Part shown: one piece after another, positions 2,860 to 7,946 of the stretch
Numbering within the stretch: position 1 is the stretch's first letter
Layout: every line of letters starts with the position of its first letter
NCBI GenBank assembly: GCA_023150835.1
Contig: JAKLKB010000192.1
Span: 1 to 7,946, forward strand
DNA length: 7,946 nucleotides
Direction of reading: 5' to 3'
From: Myxococcota bacterium
Lineage (GTDB): Bacteria > Myxococcota_C > UBA6777
Made by a program: the position numbers and the translations under genes
Notes under the pieces: model-generated
The model's input: the letters and a program-made list of their open reading frames with translations, nothing else
Database searches by the model: none
Told to the model about the DNA's origin: nothing

Positions 2860-3004
2860 TGGATCGTTTCAGCCTATCGAAATTATCTGGTGGGTAGGAT
2901 CTTTTTGAGGGGGCTGGCTTGTTGGAAAAAAGCCGTGTTTGCAAGCGTTCAAGCAGTAGAGCTGTTGGTTTGAAAAGCGCTGATCGTCTCATCCATACGG
3001 GGCC

Positions 3005-3047
3005 AAGGGAGCCGTGCTCCCTTGTGGGGCGTGGGGTGAAACCCCAC
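3005..3047. repeat. Double hairpin intergenic repeat
   Basis: There are two perfect hairpins in a row. AAGGGAGC (3005-3012) pairs with GCTCCCTT (3016-3023) around CGT, and GTGGGGT (3031-3037) pairs with ACCCCAC (3041-3047) around GAA. The second matches the hairpin at 133-147. Neither is followed by a T-run on the plus strand, so terminator function for the cyclophilin gene is doubtful. The pattern of two adjacent stems fits a dispersed intergenic palindromic repeat. Confidence 0.55.
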
Positions 3048-3122
3048 CAAAGCCATCGATCCGCGTAATACAAAATCTGAGCGATGTGTACACGAAGGAA
3101 AGTGCGTAGACGCCCGATTTTT

Positions 3123-3148
3123 GGGCAGCCACAGGGGGCTGCCCCTAC
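3123..3148 (-). repeat. REP-like hairpin with GTAG foot (copy 1)
   Basis: GGGCAGCC (3123-3130) pairs with GGCTGCCC (3137-3144) around a six-base loop, followed by CTAC (3145-3148). Read on the minus strand, GTAG sits at the 5' foot of an eight-pair stem, the architecture of REP elements recognised by RAYT (Y1 IS200/IS605-like) transposases. The same design and orientation recur at 4424-4447 and 7904-7929. On the plus strand a TTTTT run begins two bases after the CTAC, so this copy might also serve as a distant terminator for the cyclophilin transcript. Confidence 0.65.
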
Positions 3149-3187
3149 GTTTTTACGATCAAACTCCCTGCGGATTTCGTATAAGTC

Positions 3188-4351
3188 TTATCGTAAAGAA
3201 GAAAAAAAAGCATGAGCAGATGCTTTTGTTTCGGGAGATGGAGTCGTAAGTGTCACCGTTTCAGAAGACGGATGGCAGGGCTTTTTGGAAACAAAAAACA
3301 GGACGCCACCCACAATCGCAACGGCACCTGCTCCGATGTAGAGTGAGCCGGAGACTTGCGCGAGGGTGACGGAACTTTCGTATTGGGTTTTCCAAGTCGG
3401 ATCTTTTGTGAGATTTTGCATGGCTTGCCGATAAGAATCATCGGCACTGACTTGCGTGATAATCCCGCCGCCAAGCAAAAGCGCCGCACCACCGAGAACA
3501 AGCAGCGGTGGCGTCCAGTTCACGCACTGTGTCGCAGGCGGTTTGGGTTCGAGGGTGAAACTGCGGGTGGTGTTGCTTTGTAAAGCGACGGTGTGTTGTT
3601 GTGGCCGATAGCCGGGATATTCCAGTTTGATCTGGATCTCGCTGGTTTTTTTAGCCTTGAAAAAGAAAGGAGTCTGCCCTGTTTGAGTGCGTGAGCCTTC
3701 TTGAAGCGTCACTTTTGCTCCGAGCGGGACGGACTGGATCTGGAGTGTATATTCAGGTTCGGGGGATTTGGGGATTGCGACAAGATGGAAAGATTGAATC
3801 AGTTTTTGTTTCGGAAGAATCGAGATCTTTTTTGAGATCGATTGAAACCCGCTGAGATGTAGCGAGAGCGTGTAATCGCCCGGGCAGATGTCATCAAAAG
3901 CGTGGGGAGAGCGGCCTTGTTGTGTGGCTTGCGGGTTTTGGAGTGTGGCTGCGGCTTGGGGAGGAGTCGTGAGTACGGTCAGTCGTCCAAGTTCAAGGCT
4001 GGATTGGATCTGTTGGATCTGGGCTTGGATGCGGATGAGTTCATCGCCAGAGACGAGCTTTTCGTAGCGCTGGTATCGTTGGAGTGCTTGGCGGCGAAGA
4101 AAGCAAGCCTTTGCAGCCTCTTGAGGCGGTAACGTTTTGGCCCAAATAACAAAGACGCGGGCTTGGTTGTAAAGGTGAGAGGCCTGTGTGGGGTGTGCTT
4201 GCAACAGCCGCTCAAAACAATCGGCTGAGCCTTGATAATCTTTTTGGCTGAATTTTGTACGACAGTCTTGATCGCTTTGTGCGTGTACATGGATTGGAAT
4301 AATCAGCCAAAATCCATACAAGAACCAGCTAAAATGTATAAAATATTTCAT
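3188..4351 (-). CDS. PEGA-domain envelope protein with TPR-like N-terminus
   Basis: A 387-residue protein. Residues 1-24 are a signal peptide with likely cleavage after HVHA. Residues about 28-120 are helical and TPR-like (SQKDYQGSADCFERLLQAHP, then a run rich in Arg, Gln and Tyr). Two PEGA-type beta domains follow: about 123-192 (GRLTVLTTPPQAAATL ... PGDYTLSLHLSGFQ) and about 201-268 (LQIQSVPLGAKVTL ... LEYPGYRPQQHTVAL). PEGA domains are extracytoplasmic and often bind surface or cell-wall components. Two hydrophobic segments, about 281-300 and 335-355, flank a 34-residue polar loop and would form a transmembrane hairpin; the last 30 residues are polar. The ATG is preceded by AAGGGGAA (complement of 4361-4368) about ten bases away. 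The TPR + PEGA + paired-helix layout is typical of Myxococcota proteins of unknown role. It is probably transcribed on its own, because a MITE-like element separates it from the gene upstream. Confidence 0.88.
   Translation of the reverse strand: MKYFIHFSWFLYGFWLIIPIHVHAQSDQDCRTKFSQKDYQGSADCFERLLQAHPTQASHLYNQARVFVIWAKTLPPQEAAKACFLRRQALQRYQRYEKLVSGDELIRIQAQIQQIQSSLELGRLTVLTTPPQAAATLQNPQATQQGRSPHAFDDICPGDYTLSLHLSGFQSISKKISILPKQKLIQSFHLVAIPKSPEPEYTLQIQSVPLGAKVTLQEGSRTQTGQTPFFFKAKKTSEIQIKLEYPGYRPQQHTVALQSNTTRSFTLEPKPPATQCVNWTPPLLVLGGAALLLGGGIITQVSADDSYRQAMQNLTKDPTWKTQYESSVTLAQVSGSLYIGAGAVAIVGGVLFFVSKKPCHPSSETVTLTTPSPETKASAHAFFSSLR
3202..3227 (-). terminator. Terminator-like hairpin inside the 3' end of the PEGA gene
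   Basis: On the minus strand AAAAGCAT (3227-3220) pairs perfectly with ATGCTTTT (3213-3206) around CTGCTC, and four more T follow (3205-3202). This has the form of a weak intrinsic terminator. However, it lies within the coding sequence (codons for K-A-S-A-H-A-F-F), about 12 bases before the TAA at 3190-3188. Translating ribosomes would normally block the fold. The stem is A/T-rich at its base, so it may be fortuitous. Confidence 0.3.
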
Positions 4352-4378
4352 TGACTTATATTCCCCTTTTTCTTCAGA

Positions 4379-4494
4379 TAGGACTTACGCATTTCGATAC
4401 GAAAAAGGCCAATGTTCGGGTGCGGGCGGTTCGCGAACCGCCCCTACAACGTTCTGATATCTCAGGGTTTCCCTTTTCAACTGCGTCACTCCTA
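4379..4494. mobile_element. MITE-like 116-bp element with inverted ends
   Basis: The left end TAGGACTTACGCA (4379-4391) is the inverted counterpart of the right end TGCGTCACTCCTA (4482-4494), with 11 of 13 positions paired. Weaker pairing continues inward (GAAAAAGG near 4401, CCCTTTTC near 4471). TTCAGA flanks both sides (4373-4378 and 4495-4500), consistent with a 6-bp target duplication. The body carries no reading frame and contains the REP-like palindrome at 4424-4447. It lies 27 bases upstream of the PEGA gene start and may therefore supply or disrupt its promoter. The family of the mobilising transposase is unknown; none is encoded in the window. Confidence 0.6.
4424..4447 (-). repeat. 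REP-like palindrome with GTAG foot (copy 2)
   Basis: GGGCGGTT (4424-4431) and AACCGCCC (4436-4443) flank CGCG, making a perfect 20-base palindrome, followed by CTAC (4444-4447). The minus strand therefore reads GTAG then the stem, as in the copies at 3123 and 7904. The loop differs (four bases, itself palindromic), but the stem start GGGC, the stem end GCCC and the CTAC are shared. It sits inside the MITE-like element. Confidence 0.65.
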
Positions 4495-4567
4495 TTCAGA
4501 TCTTCGATGCTAGTTTGAGCCTCTTTTCAGGATGTTTCCTGCCAAACGTACACAACGGATGTCGTTT

Positions 4568-4599
4568 CCAAGAAAACTCTCATCCAAGAAAACTCTCAT
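4568..4599. repeat. Perfect 16-bp head-to-tail duplication
   Basis: CCAAGAAAACTCTCAT occurs twice without a gap, at 4568-4583 and 4584-4599, ending eight bases before the stop codon region of the collagen/beta-roll gene (on the complement, just after the TAA). The exact identity implies a recent slippage duplication. It is non-coding in the minus-strand gene layout. Confidence 0.85.
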
Positions 4600-4607
4600 G
4601 GCCGAGA

Positions 4608-6209
4608 TTACGGACATGCTGGGGAACAGATGTTTGGGGTGCCGACGGTTTTGTTTATTCCCCCCAAGAGCGAGGAGAAGTCTGCCTCTACGGTATTCCC
4701 GCTCCCGCCGACGAGGCTGGCTCGCTTCGTGGTTTTGTTTCTCACGCCGCTGCCAATCCAAGAGAGAACACCCGCTGCTTCGTTGCCGTCTGTGCCGATC
4801 GTGCATTTCGTGTAGTTCGTTTGGCCTTGGCAGGCAAGATCACCGCCTCCGCTGATGCTTGAAAGTAGAGCGGATGTTTTGTTGCTTCCGCCGCCGCTGA
4901 TGCTTGAAAGCGGCGCCGTCACAGTCGTTTGATTTCCGAACCCCCCTGAGATGCTGGAATTCGCACCGTCTGCATAATTGAATAGCCCACCCGAAACCGA
5001 AGCTCCGACCCCTTTTGCACGATTGCCTCCCCCCCCGCTTACTACCGCATATCCGCCACTTGCGATGTTTCCCACCGATGCGTCCTGTCCTCCGCCGCCT
5101 GATACAGTCGAATGATTTCCGATAGCTTTGTTGTTTTTTCCTCCACAGATTGTTGCATATTTACCTATATTTGTAGTACTTTCTGGCTCTGCTGTATTGG
5201 ATTCCCCGCCCAAAATACTTGCGCTCTCGCTGGTTGCTTTGTTGCGAGCCCCCCCTGATACGTGGGCGTAGGGTCCGAGCGCTTGGTTCTCTGTGCCACC
5301 GCTGACGGTGGCGTAGTCTTGACCTGCTGTATTCGCCTTTCCGCCGGTCACACTGGCGAACGTGTTTGGAGTCCGATTCTCTGCGCCACCTGTGATGCTT
5401 GACCACCTTCCAGAGGCTGCGTTGTACTTGCCTCCGCTGATGCTTGCATAGTCGCCTGACGCGCTATTGCCTTCTCCACCGCTGACGCTCGCATAAGGGT
5501 TTGTTGCCTTATTGCCAAGGCCGCCGCTAACGCTCGCATATTCCCCGCTTATCGTGCTGTCCTTTCCGACAACAAGGCCGCTGTGACTCTCGTAAGCGTG
5601 GCCGTCCCCAACGATCAGGTTGTTGGAACCGTTGCGCTTCGTTGCGATGACTGTGCCTTGAGCGTCTTTTCGTGGATGGTTGTAGCCGACGAGTAGGTTG
5701 CCTTTTCCTTCGGGATAACTCGGTTCTTCCACCTTATTTTTGTCGTCAACGATCTGTACGTTGATGCCCGATATCACGAGCGTTTGGGTTTTTGTTCCAT
5801 CAGTATGGGTCTTTTCTTTGAAAGAGAGATATTGCGCAAGTTTTTGTAAGACATCAGGGATTGAACCTGTGCCATCTTTTCCAGCGGGACCTTGCGGACC
5901 AGCGGGGCCTTGCGGGCCAGCGGGGCCAGCGGGGCCAGCGGGGCCAGCAGAGCCTTGCGAGCCTTGCGTTCCATTTTCTCCGTTGATTCCTGCTGTGCCT
6001 TGGGGGCCCGGGTCACCTTTGGGACCTTTGCAAACCGAAAGATCGCCGTTTGGGGCGCACCATTCGCCCGCTTTGCACGACGTCCCATCTGCGCACACAC
6101 CATCCGACGGACACAGCACGCACGTCGGCTTGAAGGTCAACACCGAACATCCGCAAAACAACAACACACATAACACCATCACTTGTAAGAAAGCCATCTT
6201 TGTCTTCAT
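4608..6209 (-). CDS. Lipoprotein with collagen-like stalk and beta-roll head repeats
   Basis: A 533-residue, probably surface-exposed protein. Residues 1-20 form a lipoprotein-type signal peptide; the box FCGC is non-standard, with lipidation proposed at Cys21. Residues 21-61 are Cys-rich (30, 33, 39, 45, 51, 60). Residues 62-115 are 18 uninterrupted Gly-X-Y triplets, mostly GPA/GPQ, a collagen-like stalk that implies a trimer. Residues 116-165 (LQKLAQYLSF ... VISGINVQIV) are a linker. Residues about 195-523 hold about 18 copies of a 15-residue repeat with consensus YASVSGG-xxN-xAxG, resembling YadA-like head or beta-roll repeats. A few copies carry insertions (near 340-350, 372-386 and 458-480). 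The C-terminus (CSPACP) has no YadA-type membrane anchor. The start has AAGGAG (complement of 6219-6224) nine bases away. It lies 52 bases downstream of the Sel1 gene, likely the same transcript. An adhesin or surface-layer role is inferred. Confidence 0.88.
   Translation of the reverse strand: MKTKMAFLQVMVLCVLLFCGCSVLTFKPTCVLCPSDGVCADGTSCKAGEWCAPNGDLSVCKGPKGDPGPQGTAGINGENGTQGSQGSAGPAGPAGPAGPQGPAGPQGPAGKDGTGSIPDVLQKLAQYLSFKEKTHTDGTKTQTLVISGINVQIVDDKNKVEEPSYPEGKGNLLVGYNHPRKDAQGTVIATKRNGSNNLIVGDGHAYESHSGLVVGKDSTISGEYASVSGGLGNKATNPYASVSGGEGNSASGDYASISGGKYNAASGRWSSITGGAENRTPNTFASVTGGKANTAGQDYATVSGGTENQALGPYAHVSGGARNKATSESASILGGESNTAEPESTTNIGKYATICGGKNNKAIGNHSTVSGGGGQDASVGNIASGGYAVVSGGGGNRAKGVGASVSGGLFNYADGANSSISGGFGNQTTVTAPLSSISGGGSNKTSALLSSISGGGDLACQGQTNYTKCTIGTDGNEAAGVLSWIGSGVRNKTTKRASLVGGSGNTVEADFSSLLGGINKTVGTPNICSPACP
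5885..5950 (-). repeat. 9-bp tandem repeats encoding collagen triplets
   Basis: On the plus strand GGGGCCAGC and close variants recur head to tail, with the most uniform stretch around 5917-5950. Read on the minus strand they encode GPA/GPQ triplets. Gains or losses of whole 9-bp units would stay in frame, so stalk length could vary between strains without inactivating the gene. Confidence 0.75.
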
Positions 6210-6261
6210 TTGAACAGTCTCCTTGTTATGGGATCCCTTTCGATCCGAGTGATTTGCTGTA

Positions 6262-7794
6262 CTATTTCTCTGGCTGAAAACGAAAAGATATCCGCAAGTC
6301 TATCTCTTCGGTGGATGGAGAAAATTTCTTGTGTATGATTTTTTGTTTGATACAGTCTTGTAATCCTTGATGTTTCAGTTCATCCTTTACGAAGCGGATG
6401 ACGGTGACTTGGCCTGACGGTGCGATACGTAAATTCACCTCGATTTCCCCTCGGAGCGTTGGTTTGTGTTGGAGTGCGCGTTCGTAACACTGCCTGAGAC
6501 TGTCCACAGATTTTAGCTCGATCTCACTTGCCCATTTTAAAGAGCACCCCAAAGCACCGCGTAACGTGCAAGCCGCGTCAAAAAACGAAACTGCCTTAGA
6601 GATATCTTTTTCCCTTCCGATCCCTTTCTGGTAAAAAATACCAACGCTCATGCAAGCATTGGCGTGGCTGAGTTTGCAGGCGTGTTGGTAAGCCTCGAAA
6701 GCGCGCTGCGGAAATTGCTGCGCCACATAAATATCCCCCATCACAGCACAAGCATCTGCGCTGTTGTGTTCGCAACCTTTCTTTGCGTAGGTGAGCGCAC
6801 GAGGAAGATCGCGCTTTACCCCAGCCAAGTTGTGGATATAGAATACGCTTGCATGAGTACATCCCGAACTATGGTTGTGTTGGCAGGCTTTGTCGTAGTA
6901 ATATAAAGCTTTTTTCTGGTCGCGTGTTCCACCCAGCCCTCGGTTAAACATATTGCCTAGGTAGAAGCAAGATTTCGCGAAAACGCCGTAGCTATCGCAA
7001 CCTGCACGAAAAAAGTCCCGCGCTTTTGTGATGTTTTCTGATGTTTGGGGGGAACTATTGAGAAAAAGCAACCCGACTGCACGACATGCTTTCCCAACGC
7101 CAGAAGAACACGCAAATTGTAATAATTGCTGGGCTTTTTCCTTATCTGGAGGTACCCACTTGCCCTCGATATAAAAACTCGCGTACTGGTAACATGCTCC
7201 GGCTGCGTTGGATTTTTGAATCGGCGAGTAGATCTGCGATCGCATGGCGAGGTGGCAACCTTTTCGTACGTTGGACAAGGCGGCCTTAAAATCTCCTCCG
7301 TTGATCTGAGCAACGCCGAGGAGCGCACAACCCGTAGCGCTTTGGAGGTCGCAACTACGCTGTAACAAACCAATGGCTTGCAAAGGCGTTGATTGAACAG
7401 CCACCAAAGCACACGCATAGCCATACCCCAAATCGCAGGATTTTTTTAATTGCTCATGGGATTGGGTCGGTTTGTTTTCGTAGAGAAGGTCACCCATGAG
7501 GAAGCAGCCTCTTCCAGAACCGTGCTTGCAGGCTTTACGGGCGTATAGAATCGAATGCGGTGTGTTTTTTTTGACCGACTTTCCGTAGTGTAAGCGCGCA
7601 GCCATCTCGGCGCAGGCATCCGCATCTTTGGCCTCACAAGCATCGCGAAGGGTTTGCGTGGTAGCGCTGGAAATTTGCTGTTTCCGAAGCACAGGTACAC
7701 ACGCCACACACAGCCACACCACGACGCTCGACGTCAAACATAACAGCAGAGAGTTCCGTTGCTTTGGTTCTTTGACTTTGTCGCAAACGCTCAT
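6262..7794 (-). CDS. Sel1-repeat lipoprotein with AgmX/PglI-like C-terminal domain
   Basis: A 510-residue protein. The start chosen is ATG at 7794: it has AGGAG eight bases upstream and directly precedes the signal peptide. A start at 7887 would add 31 residues in front of that signal without support. Residues 1-31 are a signal peptide with hydrophobic core 16-31; the box LCVAC (Cys32) is a plausible but atypical lipobox. Residues about 45-425 are some ten Sel1-like helical repeats of the form KKAC..G...GC..LG..Y, with paired cysteines about 11-13 residues apart, as in the disulfide-braced Hcp proteins of Helicobacter. Residues about 446-508 (LRGEIEVNLRIAPSGQVTVIRF ... LQDCIKQKI ... FSP ... 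IDLRISFRF) match the AgmX/PglI C-terminal, TonB-C-like fold common in Myxococcota. The solenoid probably binds proteins or peptidoglycan in the periplasm. It is the first gene of a probable two-gene unit. Confidence 0.87.
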   Translation of the reverse strand: MSVCDKVKEPKQRNSLLLCLTSSVVVWLCVACVPVLRKQQISSATTQTLRDACEAKDADACAEMAARLHYGKSVKKNTPHSILYARKACKHGSGRGCFLMGDLLYENKPTQSHEQLKKSCDLGYGYACALVAVQSTPLQAIGLLQRSCDLQSATGCALLGVAQINGGDFKAALSNVRKGCHLAMRSQIYSPIQKSNAAGACYQYASFYIEGKWVPPDKEKAQQLLQFACSSGVGKACRAVGLLFLNSSPQTSENITKARDFFRAGCDSYGVFAKSCFYLGNMFNRGLGGTRDQKKALYYYDKACQHNHSSGCTHASVFYIHNLAGVKRDLPRALTYAKKGCEHNSADACAVMGDIYVAQQFPQRAFEAYQHACKLSHANACMSVGIFYQKGIGREKDISKAVSFFDAACTLRGALGCSLKWASEIELKSVDSLRQCYERALQHKPTLRGEIEVNLRIAPSGQVTVIRFVKDELKHQGLQDCIKQKIIHKKFSPSTEEIDLRISFRFQPEK

Positions 7795-7802
7795 CTCATG
7801 GA

Positions 7803-7807
7803 CTCCT
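7803..7807 (-). promoter_or_regulatory. Ribosome binding site that fixes the Sel1 gene start
   Basis: AGGAG on the minus strand lies eight bases before ATG 7794. The ATG at 7799 runs into a stop after two codons, and the in-frame ATG at 7887 has no comparable site placed before it. This supports the shorter protein. Confidence 0.75.
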
Positions 7808-7903
7808 AAGTAAGTATCACTAAGTTTCTTCAACTTTCGCGCCCGAAGAACGGGTTCGTTCAAAAAAGATGGCGATGAAGAGGTCACCGACGCAACAGAT
7901 CGA

Positions 7904-7929
7904 GGGCAGGCACGGGGGCCTGCCCCTAC
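7904..7929 (-). repeat. REP-like hairpin with GTAG foot (copy 3)
   Basis: GGGCAGGC (7904-7911) pairs with GCCTGCCC (7918-7925) around a six-base loop, followed by CTAC (7926-7929). Stem length, loop length and foot are identical in design to the copy at 3123-3148, with near-identical arms and the same orientation. It lies about 110 bases upstream of the Sel1 gene. Confidence 0.7.
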
Positions 7930-7946
7930 GAAACACCGTGTGATTT

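Follow-up and report, generated by a model that had tools for sequence, protein, structure and literature searches.

GTAG-type REP hairpins of two classes in a Myxococcota genome: probable carriage by MITE-like elements and a probable match to group 4 RAYTs

The GTAG-tagged REPs described by Di Nocera et al. (2013) are intergenic palindromes of 20–40 bp that have a GTAG foot, occur in high copy number and have a RAYT nearby; REP dimers were also found inside outer palindromes, e.g., in A. variabilis (TATAGGAnT...AnTCCTATA) (PMC3733652). RAYT group 4, or TnpAREP subclass 2.4 (Quentin et al. 2018, PMC6006769), comprises HUH-Y1 proteins with NHxH, WQ and YIxNP motifs and a variable β3–αC insert. 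REP insertions in the gene, as well as double-foot REPs, are already known from this subclass, where the insertions were considered to form a peripheral loop with little impact. Only three RAYT–REP pairs have been studied biochemically, and the TnpAREP of E. coli contacts the REP through K82 of its DNA-binding helix α3 (PMC8266576). How REPs spread and how a RAYT discriminates among hairpins are the questions on which the data presented here bear.

Here, we describe three hairpins in a stretch of 7,946 nucleotides (the window), which is an entire contig of a 7.56-Mb draft genome (G000; 239 contigs, 93% complete), and compare this genome with that of a congeneric sister species (G001). The window's main genes encode a HEAT/cyclophilin protein, a PEGA protein, a collagen-like protein and a Sel1-repeat protein, and all three hairpins lie between these main open reading frames. 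An Rfam search of the window gave no match. The preliminary description had reported three hairpins with a GTAG/CTAC foot, and all of them were recovered, with paired parts at 3123–3144, 4424–4443 and 7904–7925 and CTAC following each. CTAC on the plus strand corresponds to GTAG on the minus strand, so that the tetranucleotide stands directly at the foot of all three, as it does in GTAG-type REPs. Their stems comprise eight perfect base pairs with loops of 6, 4 and 6 nucleotides, respectively; the second stem can be extended to 9 bp, which leaves a 2-nt loop. The differences between the arms had been read as compensating changes within one family, but they are differences between classes or sub-types: two REP classes are present and each is perfectly paired, class A with AGCC or AGGC arms and a 6-nt loop, class B as the palindrome GGTTCGCGAACC. 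With a probability of about 0.78 for the explanation as a whole, we interpret the hairpins as GTAG-type REPs of two classes that are cognate to group 4 RAYTs (TnpAREP subclass 2.4), and, for hairpins 1 and 2, we regard the surrounding MITE-like element rather than the hairpin itself as the mobile unit. The features are compiled in Table 1.

Table 1. REP hairpins and surrounding elements in the window
Feature	Position	Strand	Remarks
Left TAA, 3-bp target duplication of A-frame element	3066..3068		
A-frame MITE-like element with hairpin 1, 113 bp, ends TACAAAATCTG / reverse complement of TACGAAATCCG	3069..3181	-	missing at orthologous site G001:C77
REP hairpin 1, class A (GTAG-GGGCAGCCCCCTGTGGCTGCCC, minus strand)	3123..3148	-	commonest variant in the genome, 21/48 sampled copies
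Right TAA, 3-bp target duplication of A-frame element	3182..3184		
Left TTCAGA target duplication of B-frame element	4373..4378		
B-frame MITE-like element with hairpin 2, 116 bp, TIR consensus TAGGACTTACGCAGTTG	4379..4494		many places with 82–95% identity in G001
REP hairpin 2, class B (GTAG-GGGCGGTTCGCGAACCGCCC)	4424..4447	-	
Right TTCAGA target duplication of B-frame element	4495..4500		
Left part of larger element with inverted REP pair	7802..7946		cut by contig end; whole in G001:C210
REP hairpin 3, class A (GTAG-GGGCAGGCCCCCGTGCCTGCCC)	7904..7929	-	one base different from copies within the RAYT gene

Further repeated sequences occur in the same contig. Directly before the element around hairpin 1, at 2926–3068, lies another repeat of about 143 bp with a hairpin of its own (CAAGGGAGCCGTGCTCCCTTG) that has no GTAG foot; it has many matches of 71–88% in G001, often beside REP-bearing elements. 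Positions 1–180 are also repetitive and contain a CCCCCCGTTCACGGGGGG hairpin as well as a stretch resembling GTTAAGGTGGAAAC; similar sequence comes after several truncated A-frame elements on other contigs (e.g., L187 near 4387 and L197 near 19756). The stretch 4608–6209 encodes a collagen-like part followed by many SGGxxNxA repeats that resemble the head repeats of trimeric adhesins.

The family is abundant, as had been proposed from the three copies: GTAG-GGGC...GCCC occurs about 800 times in the genome (GTAGGGGCN{8,28}GCCC, 388 forward and 437 reverse, a few sites being counted twice at two lengths), compared with 39 matches (19 and 20) of the reversed control pattern. The same pattern was found 139 and 134 times on the two strands of G001, and in three other genomes of the family its counts are near background. 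A stricter REP definition gave 48 copies in 400 kb of sampled genome and none in shuffled sequence. The GTAG foot is present in 39 of 44 sampled class A and 3 of 6 sampled class B copies, and 46 of 50 sampled copies lie outside open reading frames of at least 150 amino acids. Separated by class, pattern A (GGGCRRNCNNNYGTGNYYGCCC) matches 644 places in G000 and 110 in G001, pattern B (GGGCGGTTCGYGAACCGCCC) about 83 and about 80; such genome-level counts are a weak test of RAYT–REP pairing, and the correspondence between classes is loose, since several REP classes coexist in many genomes. The common orientation noted before holds for the window, where CCCCTAC occurs at these three sites only, but it is not a property of the family, since the genome counts are balanced between the strands. 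Five further genomes (G098–G102, those of loci L114, L132, L139, L149 and L160) possess a class A RAYT, yet the degenerate class A pattern occurs at only about two (maximum five) places in each, which in the cases checked are the RAYT gene itself.

Could the hairpins simply be intrinsic terminators or other transcript-end structures that form no repeat family? Hairpin 1 lies between convergent genes, is followed by CTACGTTTTT and scores like a terminator, and a secondary role of this kind is possible for it. Hairpins 2 and 3 lack a T tract, however. The fixed foot shared by hundreds of near-identical copies and the insertion polymorphism described below also contradict this reading, which is refuted as an origin of the hairpins and, as a whole, is very improbable.

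Hairpin 1 is located centrally in a 113-bp unit. An alignment built from 37 class A copies revealed a conserved frame of about this length, TACGAAATCCGCCCGTTGTGTGATCGTAAAAATGTAG-REP-...-CACTCGGATATCGTA, whose inverted ends correspond to terminal inverted repeats (TIRs) of about 11 bp. The orthologous locus of G001 lacks exactly window positions 3069–3181, and the TAA that flanks the element on both sides in the window is single there. Only 285 bp away the relation is reciprocal: G001 has its own A-frame copy flanked by TTA, and the window contains a single TTA at this place. The two species are polymorphic for insertion of the element around hairpin 1. Among strict A-frame copies of the genome 12 of 26 show a 3-bp duplication, mostly TNA (3.9 expected), so that a clean duplication is seen in only about half of them; in G001 the ratio is 2 of 11 (1.2 expected). 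Duplications of the TNA type would presumably fit the IS5 group. Most strict copies carry a class A REP, one contains a class B REP and one subfamily a GTAT-type REP, which suggests that REPs of different classes can occupy the same TIR frame. A-frame elements with this GTAT core (class F) were observed at L186 near 16489 and L253 near 364.

Hairpin 2 is central in a different frame with TIRs of 17 bp in the consensus. Flanking repeats of 5 or 6 bp accompany 10 of 17 B-frame copies (about 1 expected), and a class B REP or a mutated one is present in all copies of 116 bp. Both frames thus show the inverted ends and target duplications of MITEs, the empty site being found for the A-frame only. 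The third hairpin belongs to a larger element, in which it is followed by an AACC-type REP after the spacer AAACACCGTGTGATTTCCAACA, with the putative TIR ACTCCTAAGTAAGTATC; this frame was deduced from one complete copy together with copies on contigs C1 and C2 of G000. The inverted class A pair with a short spacer is seen in these copies of both species and is cut in the window.

These findings do not support the preliminary idea that single hairpins were moved by a RAYT, since hairpins 1 and 2 reside within TIR elements with target duplications. To our knowledge, such duplications are not expected of single-strand transposition by Y1 enzymes. In the classical REP/REPIN scheme the RAYT itself would have copied the hairpin, or the hairpin with its frame, and the outer inverted repeats would be the larger stems of REPINs. 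REPs beside and inside the RAYT gene, their occurrence as inverted pairs and the GTAG foot of most sampled class A copies (39/44) speak for it. The precise 113-bp insertion with its 3-bp duplication, the reciprocal insertion at a second site, the 5–6-bp duplications at the B-frame and the coexistence in one genome of two frames with unlike ends and duplication lengths argue against it, and we consider this scheme unlikely. Hairpin 3 with its inverted partner does resemble a REPIN, unlike hairpins 1 and 2, which are single REPs in TIR frames.

We therefore return to the MITE-like unit. It is short and non-coding, has TIRs and target duplications and exists in many near-identical copies, and it differs from MITEs in general in that nearly all examined copies have a central REP or REP remnant. 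From the GTAG-tagged REPs of Di Nocera et al. (PMC3733652), with which the hairpins share length, foot, copy number, intergenic position and a nearby RAYT, the present system differs in that two outer palindromes are insertion units with target duplications, one of them with a precise empty site. REP cores would have become part of MITEs, which DDE-type transposases may then have copied in trans, so that the high REP copy number in this genome could result largely from MITE amplification. A full-length parent transposon would have TACGAAATCCG or TAGGACTTACGCAG ends. No autonomous DDE transposon with ends of this kind was found in the 93% complete genome; a genome scan for perfect TIRs with B-frame ends gave no pairs at transposon distance, and the inverted pairs obtained were all closely spaced (116 to about 170 bp).

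A RAYT elsewhere in the genome, as predicted before, is indeed present, with REPs beside and inside its gene. Contig C113 of G000 contains a class A RAYT of 254 amino acids (about 53.27–54.03 kb, minus strand) with HUH and Tyr motifs. It matches the NCBIfam model of REP-associated tyrosine transposases NF047646 with an E-value of 9e-16 and 58 bits; the curated cut-off is 80, and the lower score is probably due to splitting of the match by the insert. The sequence shows the typical features of group 4, namely MPNHIHG, WQRNYYEHIIRD, YILDNP and, in the insert between HUH and Tyr, two complete class A REPs in frame (GGGCAGGCACAGGGGCCTGCCCCTAC). Beside them the insert contains repeated 15-bp half-REP units, which encode (GQAQI)n; this long insert distinguishes the protein from the described subclass 2.4 members (PMC6006769), with which it shares the HUH-Y1 motifs, the variable β3–αC insert with in-frame REPs and the double-foot REPs. 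After the gene come five REP or REP-like units, arranged in tandem and oriented the opposite way. In the RAYT insert at L032:1450-2214 (minus strand) the run of 15-bp half-REP units (ATCGGGCAGGCACAA) stays in frame, as if a half-site had been amplified. Fragments of PF01797 (Y1_Tnp) on contig C42 of G000 (13710–13846, L031) were rejected as a RAYT; they directly precede a TnpB-like open reading frame of 452 amino acids and are probably an IS200/IS605 remnant.

The RAYT of the sister species (G001:C260) possesses a different helix (LGRLVGAFKTVSTKRIN) and has class B REPs on its flanks; its in-gene REP copy is decayed, and the helix alone still predicts class B. This is an independent sign of REP–helix pairing. 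A RAYT beside REPs of its own class was thus found for class A (G000:C113) and for class B (G001:C260), and a class B RAYT was not found in the G000 assembly (93% complete) despite about 83 class B REPs.

A search across species genomes yielded 80 RAYT loci, and with other genomes 96 usable genes were obtained. In 70 of these, from at least 21 phyla, the stretch between the HUH and WQ motifs contains a GTAG- or CTAC-footed hairpin (at least 8 bp), whereas shuffling of synonymous codons gave a mean of 0.56 and a maximum of 4; in the N-terminal and C-terminal parts such hairpins occur in 10 and 2 genes. The in-gene hairpin starts at a median of 11 codons past the HUH motif and ends at a median of 9 codons ahead of the next helix. 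In-gene pairs usually appear in the order GTAG then CTAC, and class A RAYT genes carry inverted REP pairs in frame. In a model of one such RAYT (pLDDT 82.8) the insert is a low-confidence loop before the helix and the fold is nearest to PDB entry 4er8, which was also the only hit of a sequence search of solved structures. Judged from its place after the HUH strand, this helix would be the equivalent of α3 of E. coli TnpAREP.

In the 70 genes REP similarity correlates with the identity of the 17-residue helix after the insert (r = 0.55; partial correlation given the core 0.546), some of which reflects shared descent, given the poor resolution of the core tree and the clustering of classes B and D on it. 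For the rest of the protein (core) the values are 0.11 and 0.05, and 2000 permutations of the REP–helix correlation reached at most 0.10. The columns most linked to the REP are 4, 8 and 11–13 of the helix block and a short stretch before the V-x-LD (HUH) strand; no column of the C-terminal part is linked to REP type. In a replication with 19 further in-gene REP genes the REP was predicted in 42% by the neighbour nearest in the helix, in 16% by that nearest in the core and in 4% at random. For REPs flanking a RAYT gene, agreement with the type found in the gene or predicted from the helix is 66%, compared with 9% for random RAYTs.

Two interpretations have to be weighed. The one we rather favour is that the in-frame REP of group 4 RAYTs and the following helix form one specificity module: the gene would carry a readable copy of the enzyme's recognition site, across phyla the helix residues would change in step with the REP stem, and the gene of an uncharacterized RAYT would reveal its cognate REP. 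According to the other, the in-gene REPs are random insertions that a loop tolerates, and their link to the helix reflects nothing but subfamily inheritance. This corresponds to the published view of subclass 2.4 as having a peripheral loop with little impact (PMC6006769) and agrees with the poorly ordered insert of the model and with some clustering on the core tree. It seems doubtful to us, since same-REP pairs exceed different-REP pairs in helix identity at every core identity above 0.4 (0.69–0.79 versus 0.41; 69% versus 41% at core identities of 0.4–0.5), and a second, non-adjacent stretch of the protein is REP-linked as well. Moreover, the five other genomes with a class A RAYT and the class A pattern at only 2–5 places indicate that a large genomic REP pool is not needed. 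Exchange of a cassette and convergent constraint on the helix look alike on a core tree that is too weakly resolved for counting exchanges. The RAYT would bind the same hairpin as folded single-stranded DNA via the helix after the HUH domain, and the in-frame REP may be the enzyme's own cognate site, inherited together with the specificity helix. The covariation of REP type with this helix is apparently new; a link of in-gene REP type to αC helix residues was not found in the literature searched.

The insertion polymorphism means that REPs can multiply as passengers of MITEs, and REP copy number alone is therefore no measure of RAYT activity. The covariation of REP and helix, in turn, offers a direct list of candidate specificity positions and may allow the cognate hairpin to be read from the RAYT genes of little-known phyla.
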